Below are positions 55,209 to 62,310 of a DNA stretch of 64,000 nt, piece by piece. The stretch covers positions 1,316,467 to 1,380,466 of the forward strand of contig NZ_KB911459.1 of NCBI RefSeq assembly GCF_000383475.1. The letters run 5' to 3'. Below the pieces are notes generated by a model. That model was given only the letters and a program-made list of their open reading frames with translations, searched no databases and had not been told where the DNA came from. Both the position numbers and the translations under genes were made by a program. The DNA comes from Microbacterium sp. 11MF (GTDB lineage: Bacteria > Actinomycetota > Actinomycetes > Actinomycetales > Microbacteriaceae). The first letter of the stretch is position 1. Every line of letters starts with the position of its first letter.

Positions 55209-55267
55209 GAACCGTCGGGATGACAGGATTTGAACCTGCGACCCCTTGACCCCCAGGTAGACGGTTC
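55209..55267. repeat. 8-bp inverted repeat flanking the tRNA fragment
   Basis: GAACCGTC (55209-55216) and GACGGTTC (55260-55267) flank the tRNA-Pro fragment at the island edge. This could be recombinase-related or chance. Confidence 0.35.
55215..55256 (-). tRNA. tRNA-Pro(GGG) 3' fragment: attachment scar of an integrated element
   Basis: Read on the minus strand this is CTGGGGG, the anticodon loop with GGG, then the 3' anticodon stem TCAAG, variable loop, T-arm with GGTTCAAATCC, and the acceptor half CATCCCG with discriminator A. Upstream sequence does not form the 5' anticodon stem, D-arm or acceptor partner, so it is a 42-base fragment, not a working tRNA. Tyrosine recombinases often cross over in the anticodon loop of tRNA genes and rebuild the tRNA at the far end. 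This is the left edge of the island. Confidence 0.8.
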
Positions 55268-58039: not shown

Positions 58040-59050
58040 CTACACGACTAGCTCTTGGATTTCTGACTCCGATGTCTCCAGATCCGCCTCTAGGCGCACG
58101 AGCACCTTGACCGTGCACGAGATGCGCCCGGCGACCTCCGCGTAGTGGCTGTTCCAGTCAGCGTCGCTCACGGTGAGGGTGTCATCGAGGCCCGGGAGAT
58201 CCGCCTTATAGACGTACCCGTTCACGCCAAGTTCGGCAGGAATGTCCACCGTCCAAAGTTGCGTATCGCCGACGAAGGTGTCGACGAGCTGAGCATCTCC
58301 GTCGTCGGCGGATACCTCGCTTACAGTCACCTCCTCAACGGCGGTATCCCAGGAGGTGAGATCGCCATCGAGTATTTCGTGAAGTAGGGCCGTTTCGATG
58401 AATTTGAGCGCGTGCTCGGTCACGATGGTCGCGACGCTTGGCGCCGTTCCGAGCTCGACGCGTGACGCCAGATCTTGAGGCCGCTGCAGGATCTCAACGT
58501 GCACGCCCGGTGGCAACTCTGCGAGCAGTTCTCGCTTGAGGTCGCCCTTGGGTGAACAGAAGTCTTGGCTGTTGGCTGTGACGAAAAAGACGTTCGCGAC
58601 GAGTTCAGGTAGATCTCGTATCCAGGCCAGCAAAGTCAGCCAGATGAGCGTGTCTCGATAGCCCTTTCCGGATCGGGCGAATGGCGCCCGCACGTTTACA
58701 TCACGGGCTACTACTTCCGCGTGAGGCGCGTCAGGCATGGGAAGGATCGCGACGCCGTTTGCGTCGAGCCAGTCCGGTAGGAGGCGCTGGACTTGGTGGG
58801 GCGTCGGGATCTCCGGCGGGAGGAAGTCGATCCCGAATGTGGCAAGTACAGTCCTCGCCTCTGATACTTGCTTAGCTTTCGCCTCGATCGTCTCGCTCGC
58901 TTGCCGACCTGATTCCAGCACGGTGACTTGGCTGGTCGCGGCTTGGAGAACGCCTTCTTTGATCGCTGCCGTGATCTTCCGCCAGCTCGTGGTTTCCAGG
59001 TCTCGGGCGCCCGTGAACGCGGTCGTGTCGAAGAACGCATAGTCAGGCAT
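58040..59050 (-). CDS. PIN-domain endonuclease (DUF4935-like)
   Basis: A 336-residue protein. The N-terminal ~195 residues look like a PIN ribonuclease: YAFFDTTAFTG (D8), VLESGRQ (E46), GKGYRDTLIWLTLLAW (D133) and VFFVTANSQDF (N160, D163), which give the metal-binding acidic set. The C-terminal ~140 residues are an acidic domain of unknown fold. No antitoxin is adjacent, unlike VapBC pairs. It has its own leaderless-type promoter: TAGCGT is exactly six bases before the ATG, with a possible TCGACA -35 18 bases further. It lies between the nuclease/methylase trio and the CHAT gene. Confidence 0.8.
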   Translation of the reverse strand: MPDYAFFDTTAFTGARDLETTSWRKITAAIKEGVLQAATSQVTVLESGRQASETIEAKAKQVSEARTVLATFGIDFLPPEIPTPHQVQRLLPDWLDANGVAILPMPDAPHAEVVARDVNVRAPFARSGKGYRDTLIWLTLLAWIRDLPELVANVFFVTANSQDFCSPKGDLKRELLAELPPGVHVEILQRPQDLASRVELGTAPSVATIVTEHALKFIETALLHEILDGDLTSWDTAVEEVTVSEVSADDGDAQLVDTFVGDTQLWTVDIPAELGVNGYVYKADLPGLDDTLTVSDADWNSHYAEVAGRISCTVKVLVRLEADLETSESEIQELVV

Positions 59051-59140: not shown

Positions 59141-60100
59141 TCACCGAAGCAACGCGCGCCTGACGAGCGACTCAAGCGCGTCGTCGAGGTCCTCGGCTTC
59201 GATCAGCGAAGCGAGTTCCTCGCGACCGACCATCACGACGCAGATGTCCTGGGTAGAGAATCTCAGCTCCTGCAACTTCGCGTCCTCTGTGAAGCCCGCC
59301 AGAGACACGAGGAATGCTATCCGTGAAGTCCCACGTTTCGTTTGCAACTTCGTGAGGAGGACAGACATGACTTGCTGCGATGCCTTGTCCACCCTGTTCT
59401 TGGCTTCGACCAGAATGAACGGAATCCCCGGGCGCTGCCAAACGCGCGGACTGAAGTTATCGACCTGAAGAACGAGGTCGATCTCCTCTGTCTCCGTACG
59501 ATAGTTGCGCTCGATGACTTTCAGATCGCGAACCTGTGAGAACAAGAAGGCCAGTAGCGCTTCGAGACGGCGGCCTTTCTCCTGCGAGGTCCCGTCCTCA
59601 ATTCGTGACCACACGCTGCGGCAGATCACCTGCCGAGACTCAGGGGGAACGGGGACTTCTACCTCAGCGAGGGCGATGAGTACGGGACGAGAGACCAGGC
59701 GACGAGCCGTCACGTAGTCGTCAACGATCAAGACATCTGCATCGAGGTCCACAAGAAGCGCGATGACCTCAGGCTTGAACAGAGAAGCTATCGGAAGAGC
59801 CATTGTGATGCCGATGTCCCTTGAGGCGGCCAGCTGAAGGCGGTCGCGCACGAATCGGGGAAGCTCGTCCTGAAGGTACACATAGAGCAGACGCTGCCGG
59901 TCCGCCGAAACGGCGGAGGGACGCCACCTCTTCGTCTCGAGGTTCAGTTCGACATCGCGTTCCCAACCCGCTCCCCCGGCCGACGCGCAGATCTGATCGG
60001 TGAGATCCGCTATGTCCTCCGAACTGATGAAACGTCCGGCACTCGGGTCATCGACGATCTCGTCAACGATGGCCCCTTCGAGCTCAGGCTGATCGCTCAT
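59141..60100 (-). CDS. PD-(D/E)xK nuclease-like protein
   Basis: A 319-residue protein. The C-terminal half has the restriction-endonuclease core: KGRRLEALLAFLF (E180), TEEIDLVLQV (D208) and FILVEAKNR (E232-x-K234), in order and spacing of Mrr/RecB-type nucleases. A short C-terminal part (ICVVMVGREELASLIE) completes the fold. The N-terminal ~160 residues are of unknown fold and could sense or bind a partner. It overlaps the ParB gene by 17 bases, so translation is coupled. It is too small for a type I or III subunit. Confidence 0.75.
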   Translation of the reverse strand: MSDQPELEGAIVDEIVDDPSAGRFISSEDIADLTDQICASAGGAGWERDVELNLETKRWRPSAVSADRQRLLYVYLQDELPRFVRDRLQLAASRDIGITMALPIASLFKPEVIALLVDLDADVLIVDDYVTARRLVSRPVLIALAEVEVPVPPESRQVICRSVWSRIEDGTSQEKGRRLEALLAFLFSQVRDLKVIERNYRTETEEIDLVLQVDNFSPRVWQRPGIPFILVEAKNRVDKASQQVMSVLLTKLQTKRGTSRIAFLVSLAGFTEDAKLQELRFSTQDICVVMVGREELASLIEAEDLDDALESLVRRALLR

Positions 60101-61109
60101 CGGCATTGAGCAGCGCTTCGAGTTGAGTGATGAGCTGGTGCCCAAGGCGCTTCACTTCGTCGTTGTCGGGCGTATCGGCCGTCTGCGTAAGTAACCGGCT
60201 GAAGACAGCGATCATCGACGACGTGCGACGACCGAGCTTGTCCACCTCAACCATCATCTGGACAGTGTCTTCGAAGGCGTCCTCGATGGTGGCGTCCGGC
60301 TTCTCGATGAGATCGCGGATCGAGCTGTCGATCGTGGATTCACCCGTGCCGTTCTCCGCGGCATCCTGGGCGGCGAACTTGATAATCGGCGACACCTTGC
60401 GGAGGCTGACCGTGTCAGTGATGACCTGATCAAGGCGCTTTTGCACGAACGCTGCGCTGACGCGATCCTCGCCGAACTCGTCGAGGATGACGGGGCGGTT
60501 CTTGCGTAGCGCGTCGATGACGTTCTTCTTGAGCTCCCAGAAGAAGTTGAGCGGGATCGTCTCCTCGCGGATGTAGTCCTGCCACTCGTCGGGCAAGGTG
60601 ACGACGTAGCGCAGCTGCCGAACTCGTTCCATCGACAGACCGGTGAGGTCGCGCAACTCGGCGTCGTTGGGCTCGCGACCCTCGCTCTCCTCAATTTCCT
60701 GCGCGAGGCGTTGCAATGCCTTCGCAGTGGGAATGTCGCGCCACGGCTCCCGGATGAGGTGGATATTGAACATCTGCTGCAAAACTTCACGTTCGCTACG
60801 TTCCGTCGTGATGAGTGCCGGGATCTTGGAGTGTCCGAGGTCACGAGCGCAGCGGTACCGTCGCTCACCGTCCACCAGGACGAACTTGTCGCCGCGCGGA
60901 TACACCACGATCGGGACAAGCACACCCTCCAGATCAATGGATCCGGTCAATCGGTCGAGTTCATCTTGAGGGAAATCGAGGCGCGGATTGGCGTCGTTCG
61001 GCACAACGTCTGAGACGTTGAGCTCGCGAAGCTCGGCAGTCGCGTTGTGCGCCCCAGAGTCCGACGTTTCTTCGGGTTGCGGCGACGCTTCCTCAGATGG
61101 TGCAGACAT
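60084..61109 (-). CDS. ParB/Spo0J-like domain protein
   Basis: A 341-residue protein. Residues about 30-130 form a ParB N-domain: VVPNDANPRLDF, PIVVYPRGDKFVLVDGERR (D80-R84), and NIHLIREPWRDIPTA (N115-R120), the motifs that bind CTP in canonical ParB. A helix-turn-helix near 149-171 (NDAELRDLTGLSMERVRQL) follows. The C-terminal half is helical with no known domain. There is no ParA partner. Its position between a methylase and a nuclease gene suggests a DNA-binding or specificity role. GGAG lies seven bases before the ATG, inside the methylase gene. Confidence 0.85.
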   Translation of the reverse strand: MSAPSEEASPQPEETSDSGAHNATAELRELNVSDVVPNDANPRLDFPQDELDRLTGSIDLEGVLVPIVVYPRGDKFVLVDGERRYRCARDLGHSKIPALITTERSEREVLQQMFNIHLIREPWRDIPTAKALQRLAQEIEESEGREPNDAELRDLTGLSMERVRQLRYVVTLPDEWQDYIREETIPLNFFWELKKNVIDALRKNRPVILDEFGEDRVSAAFVQKRLDQVITDTVSLRKVSPIIKFAAQDAAENGTGESTIDSSIRDLIEKPDATIEDAFEDTVQMMVEVDKLGRRTSSMIAVFSRLLTQTADTPDNDEVKRLGHQLITQLEALLNADERSA

Positions 61110-62310
61110 ATAGGTTCTCCGTTGCTGTCTTCTTCGACGTACCTGTCGACCCGCCCATGGTGGAGTGATTTGCTTCGAACGACAGTGTCTCCACGTCGTT
61201 GAAGTACTGAGACGCTACGTCCGCGACTGTCAGATCGAGCTCGGTGAGCAGGCCGGACGACGGGTAGCTGACGACCAGAGGCACACGCATGCGGGCCACG
61301 TTGCGACAGAGATCGTGAAATGAGGCGACGACCGCGCTCTTCAATGAGAACCCAGTAGTGAACCGGTCCGACCTGTTGCGACCGGCTCCGCTCGAGTCGG
61401 GATAGTCGTACCGGTACAGGGTTTCGTAGACGTGGTAATAGCGGCTGTACTGGTCCTTCGTGTACGGGGGGTCTGCGTAGATGGTTCCCACGTCGCGAAG
61501 TTGGCCTGTACTGATCAAATCGAGAGCGTCACCCACGAACACGGAGTTGTTCGAACGCCACTTCTCGGTGCCCACCAGTGCGACTGAATCCAGAGCGATG
61601 ATGAACTCGTCCCACACCGATCTCCCCCATGTGCGCACGATACGGGCGTGCGCGGATGCAGAGTTCGGCCGCAGGAACTGAGCGGTGTGGCCGGGAGCAT
61701 TCACCAGAACGGATGTGGCGGTGATCCATGCACCCAGAAGCCAGTCGCGGTCATTGAGTTGGGTGTCCCCGTCTATCGCGGATCGGATCGAGTCAACCTC
61801 GATCGCTTGCTGCAGGCTGAGATAGCCGGCGGAGAAGTACAGACTGGCGAGTTCGTAGTGCTCGCTCGTGCTAGCTACTGCGGCTGCGCGGGCGGCCCGT
61901 CTATGCGCAGCCGAGTTCCCCACGTGCGCGGCGCGCTGCATGTACTCGACGAGATCTAGACGCGTGCCTGTCAGCGCACGGTGTTCGGAGGCAAGCTGCG
62001 TGGAGTACTTCTGCGTCAATTCTCGAAGTCGAGCGTCGTACGCCGGACGCAAGCGAACGAGAGTTGAGGGGGCCTCTGCCGAGCGTTGGAGCGCTGTGAA
62101 CCGGGCCCTCGATAAGGCGGCCGTGAAGCTTAGCGCGTCATTCGTCACTACTGAGGCGGTGTTCTGAAGGCTCTCTGCAACACTGCCCATGCCCGAGAAA
62201 AGGTCGACTACCCTTCCCGCGTGCGTGAGGTCACCAATTGTGTCACGGACGTGATCCGCCATGTGACGCTTGGTTCCCATGTAGCGCACTACCACGCGAT
62301 AGCTCTCCAT
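61093..62310 (-). CDS. D12-class DNA adenine methylase
   Basis: A SAM-dependent N6-adenine DNA methyltransferase of 405 residues. The N-terminal RYMGTKRHMADHVRD is the usual opening; motif I is VVDLFSGMGSVA (D36). After an unusually long helical insert (about 70-260), which would be the target recognition part, comes motif IV YADPPYTKDQYSRYYHVYET (D280-P-P-Y283). The order I then IV defines the alpha (Dam/D12) group. The recognition site cannot be predicted. The ATG at 62310 has AAAGAGG too close upstream; a GTG at residue 6 with GGAGAG is possible. It is the first gene of the three-gene operon. Confidence 0.88.
   Translation of the reverse strand: MESYRVVVRYMGTKRHMADHVRDTIGDLTHAGRVVDLFSGMGSVAESLQNTASVVTNDALSFTAALSRARFTALQRSAEAPSTLVRLRPAYDARLRELTQKYSTQLASEHRALTGTRLDLVEYMQRAAHVGNSAAHRRAARAAAVASTSEHYELASLYFSAGYLSLQQAIEVDSIRSAIDGDTQLNDRDWLLGAWITATSVLVNAPGHTAQFLRPNSASAHARIVRTWGRSVWDEFIIALDSVALVGTEKWRSNNSVFVGDALDLISTGQLRDVGTIYADPPYTKDQYSRYYHVYETLYRYDYPDSSGAGRNRSDRFTTGFSLKSAVVASFHDLCRNVARMRVPLVVSYPSSGLLTELDLTVADVASQYFNDVETLSFEANHSTMGGSTGTSKKTATENLYVCTI

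Follow-up and report, generated by a model that had tools for sequence, protein, structure and literature searches.

The stretch analysed here (the window) comprises 64,000 nucleotides (nt) of Microbacterium sp. 11MF (contig NZ_KB911459.1, positions 1,316,467 to 1,380,466), and it carries on its minus strand a tightly packed operon of three genes (the trio) that encode an N6-adenine DNA methyltransferase (methylase), a ParB-family protein and a predicted nuclease. Among relatives of these genes, a distinct ParB subfamily is linked to a methylase and to a further gene in third place that is exchanged between loci, and the subclades of this ParB track the type of that gene. The features of the operon are the following, with protein lengths in amino acids (aa).

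61093..62310, minus strand: D12-class N6-adenine DNA methyltransferase gene, 405 aa
60084..61109, minus strand: ParB-family gene, 341 aa, with ParB_N (GERR box), a helix-turn-helix (HTH) region and a C-terminal region
59141..60100, minus strand: predicted effector (nuclease) gene, 319 aa, with an alpha/beta N-domain and a C-terminal PD-(D/E)XK nuclease domain
61093..61109, minus strand: overlap 1, methylase stop and ParB start, 17 nt
60084..60100, minus strand: overlap 2, ParB stop and nuclease start, 17 nt
61115..61120, minus strand: GGAGAA, likely ribosome-binding site of ParB, within the C-terminal codons of the methylase

The window methylase scores 43.4 bits against PF02086 (cut-off 22), matches the PADLOC model MTase_II and carries the motifs DLFSGMG and DPPY; residues D36, F38, G40 and D280-Y283 (DPPY and FxG motifs) are invariant in nine sequences. 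A pattern-based search for the methylase among species genomes found eight relatives, each with an adjoining ParB. The nuclease follows in six of them (Actinomyces, Intrasporangium, Leifsonia, an uncultured Salinisphaerales, an Acidimicrobiia bacterium and Rhodanobacter) and a different third gene in two (Sphingomonas and Qipengyuania), and the trio is thus found in both Actinomycetota and Pseudomonadota. Profile searches matched the methylase in 4 of 394 genomes of its own class at E 1e-20, in 7 of 246 genomes around Sphingomonas (three strong, one of these the seed) and in 3 of 250 genomes around Rhodanobacter at E 1e-50 (one strong being the seed). All 13 strong methylase relatives outside the window (L021-L028, L034, G944, G936, G1108 and G1150) occur with ParB, which in L064 (genome G936) lies two genes from the methylase and does not directly adjoin it. 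The subfamily ParB was absent beside the weaker methylase relatives examined (L008-L014, L029-L033, L035-L037, L053-L055, L059-L062 and L065-L068), several of which show only about 1.5 kb on each side, and the weak relatives are not counted as trios. Among plasmid records, 17 had a methylase match and 5 of them were examined; a search of viral contigs with the window methylase gave no match. The methylase itself is either window-type or Dam-type depending on the locus, and its pairwise identities correlate with those of ParB across 15 trios (rho 0.84, with 0 of 2000 permutations as high).

The linkage is also seen from the side of ParB. A ParB profile of 17 rows matched 34 of the 246 genomes in which it was searched, with four full-length hits (E 3e-126 to 6e-77), each next to both a D12 methylase gene and a third gene; the remaining hits (E 2e-29 or worse) cover the N-domain and HTH only. 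Three of the four (G769, G944 and G936) are rows of the profile and had already come from the methylase searches, so that what this search adds independently is a single locus, L187 in genome G946, which has a Dam-type methylase. On viral contigs that carry the subfamily ParB, a D12 methylase lies just upstream in five of five cases, each over the Pfam cut-off (four contigs came from a ParB query and one first from a methylase query, and two carry identical ParBs). Four plasmid ParB hits (H4, H65, H77 and H78) adjoin a ParA or ParA-like ATPase gene and look like partition genes; a fifth, H9, carries no annotation.

The nuclease profile matched 2 of 346 genomes, the seed and G1385, and both matches stand in trios. 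A nuclease search of 297 genomes of the order returned the organism's own genome only, and searches of genome contigs and of viral contigs gave no match. The L026 nuclease had no match in plasmids and the L064 phosphoribosyltransferase (PRTase, see below) none in phages. These blank searches, that of viral contigs with the window methylase included, are weak: the search of genome contigs missed six nucleases later found in the same collection. Neither ParB nor a window-type methylase was found in the stretch surrounding one further PRTase hit (H86).

The initial annotation, made from the letters of the window alone, had proposed a three-gene operon and had called a ParB between a methylase and a nuclease unusual for type II restriction-modification, and the comparison supports it on both points, the genes forming a conserved unit. 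In 17 of 18 loci the methylase stands ahead of ParB, and wherever a third gene can be read (17 of 17 loci) it comes after ParB; the one departure is L064 (ParB-PRTase-methylase). That annotation had also held that homologues standing alone would speak against the unit. For ParB and nuclease as whole proteins the unit stood, since no subfamily ParB lacking a D12 methylase was found among the 246 genomes or the loci examined and both profile-found nucleases lie in trios; it did not stand for distant methylases, which lack this ParB, or for the nuclease C-domain, which occurs alone in other proteins.

The third gene is a predicted nuclease in nine of the 17 readable loci (type A: the window, L021-L026, L074 and L076), HEPN-like in five (type B: L027, L028, L034, L063 and L075) and a PRTase in three (type C); the nuclease is not the constant partner. 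From its alignment and structure model, the window protein is a predicted nuclease with a PD-(D/E)XK site: E180, D208 and E232-A-K234 are invariant in seven sequences, and E-A-K is kept in eight of nine after addition of L074 and L076. The family matches are a sub-threshold score for UPF0102 in the window copy (22.3, cut-off 23.6), Mrr_cat, which is over its cut-off in L024 and L026 and below it in the window protein, and in PADLOC only PDC-S02 (E 0.045). The model (predicted local distance difference test, pLDDT, 83.0) gave on a second look matches to N.BspD6I (Z 11.0, root-mean-square deviation [rmsd] 3.3, 156 aligned), EcoT38I (Z 9.9, rmsd 3.0, 130 aligned) and FokI (2fok; Z 9.2, rmsd 4.0, 156 aligned). 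These matches cover residues ~140-319, the C-domain, and the N-terminal 165 residues are modelled as a separate alpha/beta domain.

The type B proteins were modelled from three sequences, and the best of five models reached pLDDT 88.1 (two were poor, 60 and 44). The N-domain of the model resembles PD-(D/E)XK folds (XisH family, 2okf, Z 9.2, rmsd 2.8, 110 aligned) and its helical C-domain the HEPN protein TM0613 (1o3u, Z 8.2, rmsd 3.2, 114 aligned); a motif R-N-x-x-x-H is present in four of the five proteins. Type C corresponds to PRTase-CE, with PF24390 scores of 138.1 (L064), 109.3 (L039) and 101.3 bits (L040) against a cut-off of 27, and the third genes of L064 and L039, the two tested, match PADLOC PRTase_III-A. 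L064 combines the PRTase with a window-type methylase, and three phage contigs (L039, L040 and L041) carry Dam-type methylase-ParB operons with PRTase-CE in third place in the first two; the L041 locus ends before a third gene can be read. L187 joins a Dam-type methylase and a subfamily ParB to yet another third protein, which matches neither third-gene profile and is read as HEPN-like on the basis of a TRVKLTH motif seen by eye. At L064 we also observed a gene for a 775-aa protein (L064:2363-4690), convergent with the operon, with a sub-threshold match to DndB (28.2 bits, cut-off 29.1).

The window ParB matches PF02195 (ParB_N) with 59.0 bits (cut-off 26.3), and the alignment of the family profile to Noc/Spo0J spans the N-domain and HTH (best 7ol9, E 1.1e-23). 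PADLOC gave no match for it, and for the L026 ParB a weak match to MTase_II (E 1.2e-4). Box II reads GERR in 17 of 18 trio ParBs and GQRR in L064. Box III reads MFNIHLIREPW in the window and M-x-x-I-H-x-x-R-x-x-W in the subfamily, the core IHxxRxxW being present in 18 of 18 trio ParBs. Among the matches listed in a ParB search, this core is found in all seven rows scoring at least 258 (two of which are one place and two of which have identical ParBs) and in none of the 53 lower-scoring rows. The ParA-binding motif LG[RK]GL occurs in 0 of 18 trio ParBs versus 26 of 26 canonical ParBs from the 246-genome search. In the phylogeny, 19 trio ParBs are split from 10 other ParBs (support 96/94), and the subclades within the trio ParBs match the type of third gene [nuclease, 9 rows, 99/96; HEPN-like, 5 rows, 100/99; PRTase and phage, 5 rows, 100/97, where the locus of two identical phage ParB rows ends before a third gene can be read]. 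L048 was left out of this tree, in which a number of the outgroup branches have great length and the root serves only the drawing.

Both 17-nt overlaps noticed in the initial annotation are present on the minus strand, at 61093-61109 and 60084-60100. Alternative in-frame starts of the nuclease exist at ATG 60106 (overlap 23) and TTG 60145 (overlap 62); the ATG that gives the 17-nt overlap is common to L021, L022 and L023, and in L023 it is the sole ATG there. At the first junction, the DNA coding for the methylase C-terminus TENLYVC contains the ParB start and the GGAGAA site, and their position in the last codons of the methylase is a sufficient reason for the overlap. The equal overlaps had also been taken as a sign of fixed stoichiometry, as for subunits of one complex. 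Gene overlap does not fix stoichiometry, and the spacings in 17 loci of all types, measured from gene starts chosen among candidate starts, differ so widely between relatives that we rejected this claim. From methylase to ParB, the type A loci overlap by 17, 17, 17, 17, 20, 17 and 20 nt or have gaps of 16 and 14 (17 in the window, L021, L022, L023 and L025; 20 in L024 and L026), the type B loci show 4, 4, 4, gap 2 and 4 (for the L028 ParB both GTG, overlap 4, and ATG, overlap 1, are possible starts), and the phage loci 4, 13 and 4. From ParB to the third gene, the values are 17, 17, 17, 17, gap 11, 8, gap 8, 4 and 4 in type A, gap 3, gap 4, 11, gap 4 and gap 2 in type B, 4 in L064, and gap 28 and 4 in the phage loci. 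The first junction thus varies between 20 nt of overlap and a gap of 16 nt, the second between 17 nt of overlap and a gap of 28 nt. Apart from the window, just its three closest relatives (L021-L023) have 17 nt at both junctions, so that their equality is a single state inherited within one close group. Tight packing is conserved; the figure 17 is not.

The operon has a GC content of 60.1%, versus 69.8% for positions 1-55000 of the window, and it lies within a low-GC island of ~13.7 kb that is delimited by 43-bp direct repeats and extends past the window end. Besides the trio, the island holds a CHAT protein, a PIN protein, an integrase, a long unassigned frame and a PDC-S28-type helicase; several of its genes are of defence type.

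55214..55256, plus strand: left 43-bp repeat, a copy of one end of tRNA-Pro
68884-68926 (window numbering, beyond the window): right 43-bp repeat, at the end of the tRNA-Pro(ggg) gene, 98% identity
62567..63823, plus strand: tyrosine integrase of the island, PF00589, 80.1 bits
55665..57905, minus strand: CHAT-domain protein, island cargo, PF12770; PADLOC BovA, 1.5e-25, residues 466-621
58040..59050, minus strand: PIN_12 gene downstream of the trio, PF16289, 67 bits
L198:14461-17046 (window numbering 65994-68579), minus strand: helicase with a match to PADLOC candidate system PDC-S28, E 1.1e-285

The PIN_12 gene was not found at L021-L028 and stands outside the conserved trio. A convergent PIN_8 gene directly follows the nuclease at two relatives (L022:9154-10683 and L023:9286-11076), which may be an accessory or a coincidence, and an 817-aa frame with no family match adjoins the PDC-S28 helicase. 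An Rfam scan of 52-64 kb gave no match.

Relatives of the trio keep the ParB and swap the nuclease for other predicted weapons, and for this reason the operon looks like a plug-in anti-virus system and not like an ordinary restriction pair. Judging from sequence, we give an even chance to the reading that it is a mobile, self-contained, methylation-gated anti-phage cassette with ParB as hub and exchangeable effectors. We infer the defence function from the effector types and the island, and the role of ParB as hub from its being the constant part. In such a cassette the methylase would mark host DNA as self, and ParB, freed from ParA and acting on DNA as an NTP (nucleoside triphosphate)-binding clamp or adaptor, would read unmarked or otherwise aberrant DNA, perhaps together with the methylase. 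It would then recruit or release the effector through the N-terminal domain of the latter. The window version would cut DNA through its PD-(D/E)XK domain, while in relatives the cell would instead be shut down by a PRTase or by a domain predicted to be a HEPN-like RNase, and the gene overlaps would let all three proteins come from one message. A more specific version, which we put forward tentatively, makes the ParB-fold NTP-dependent clamp the decision-maker: it might sense DNA without the cassette's N6-adenine mark, or the loss of the methylase, and switch on any of several plug-in effectors (a DNase, an RNase or a PRTase directed at nucleotides), a single sensor thus serving many effectors.

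Several observations weigh against the cassette reading or parts of it. Among 394 genomes of the class, only the organism's own has a strong window-type methylase, and distant methylase relatives occur without the subfamily ParB, some in plain type II systems. None of the Foldseek hits of the nuclease model reached E 0.001, the model also matches RPB5, a non-nuclease (Z 9.3), and the L076 nuclease reads T-A-K for E-A-K, with loss of the Glu. The type B third gene is predicted to be HEPN-like from a three-sequence model and a short motif; Pfam HEPN models do not match the HEPN-like third genes, the C-domain scores nearly as well against vinculin-type bundles (tails; Z up to 7.4, near the 8.2 for HEPN), and the L075 protein, with its 237 aa, is short and does not have this motif. 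Between types A and B, the N-domains have a similar order of strands and helices (by eye) and a common W-x-P, and this part of the nuclease and HEPN-like proteins may be of common descent, but the similarity of the profiles is weak, hhalign giving P 0.0086 with a probability of 4.7% (unrelated controls P 0.12-0.43); the full-length comparison was not significant. The organism's own chromosomal ParB (L001) also lacks LG[RK]GL, so this motif is not universal. Finally, canonical box III, which we take to be ENxxR with the Glu needed for hydrolysis, has F or Y at that presumed Glu position in the trio ParBs, and hydrolysis-driven switching may therefore be lost; judged from these residues, the subfamily ParB may bind NTP without hydrolysing it.

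An ordinary type II restriction-modification pair whose two enzymes share one site, and in which ParB is an accessory or a C-protein-like regulator, is the rival we take most seriously, although we think it rather unlikely. The methylase is type II-like and the nuclease Mrr/FokI-like, the HTH region of ParB aligns to Noc, and distant methylase relatives adjoin BglII/BstYI and LlaJI nucleases. Such a pair fails to explain why the subfamily ParB is kept beside a HEPN-like protein or a PRTase, and the regions upstream of the four close operons showed neither a conserved palindrome nor an inverted repeat in common. It is improbable that ParB is itself an effector, a nicking nuclease or nucleotidase of the ParB/Srx type under NTP control, to which the third gene would add a second weapon. 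The available portions of two papers do describe ParB domains of conflict systems as DNases or nucleotidases (PMC5512222, PMC10853773), but the GERR box and HTH region are kept as in Noc, and an adjacent third gene is present in all 17 loci whose sequence continues. The integrase, the 43-bp repeats and the tRNA-Pro target would suit a maintenance or addiction module of the island in which ParB partitions the excised element; we consider this very improbable, given that the ParA-binding motif is absent in 18 of 18 trio ParBs, that no ParA was found among six window genes scanned, and that related trios are also located on viral contigs.

The comparison gives an orphan ParB subfamily a defined set of genetic partners, a sequence signature and a directly testable role, in which it would couple the methylation state of DNA to toxic effectors that can be exchanged. 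A further prediction is that any gene in third place beside a subfamily ParB is a candidate new effector, and the phage-borne operons (L039, L040 and L041) may have a defence or counter-defence role in phages.

ParB-fold proteins are coming to be seen as NTP-binding modules that extend beyond chromosome segregation, with numerous orphans on mobile elements; the canonical clamp closes with cytidine triphosphate and opens on its hydrolysis, and folds binding ATP or GTP are reported, while 17 of 28 tested proteins were without detectable binding (PMC12704722, in the parts available). The same parts of this 2025 survey deal with fusions and with parAB operons; a methylase-ParB type of operon is not mentioned in them. 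In open-licence PubMed Central literature, as far as its texts were accessible and with preprints outside this scope, we found no description of methylase-ParB-nuclease or methylase-ParB-PRTase operons. What is known from this literature is that one HEPN family occurs in an operon with ParB and methylase genes, a one-line table entry in the 2013 HEPN survey for the MAE_28990-type family (PMC3710099, seen in part); no description of the wider system was found. Likened by gene content, these operons share with type B trios a HEPN gene beside ParB and DNA methylase genes, and they differ in that the third gene of the window is a predicted PD-(D/E)XK nuclease, that others have a PRTase and that our HEPN-like relatives match no Pfam HEPN family. 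Dnd, Dpd and GmrSD, according to the available portions of the sources, likewise combine a ParB-fold protein with DNA modification or restriction, with other modification chemistry and gene content (PMC10853773, PMC12839542). The PRTase of L064 and L039 matches that of retron type III-A in PADLOC models, whereas no reverse transcriptase was noticed by eye among the open reading frames around L039, L040 and L064, where no search was run. With the CTPases Noc and Spo0J the trio ParBs share ParB_N, the HTH and the GERR box, but they lack the ParA-binding motif and have their own box III motif and a methylase partner. The trio resembles type II restriction-modification in having an adenine methylase near a PD-(D/E)XK nuclease, and it differs from it in its conserved ParB and in a nuclease that is exchangeable within the ParB subfamily.

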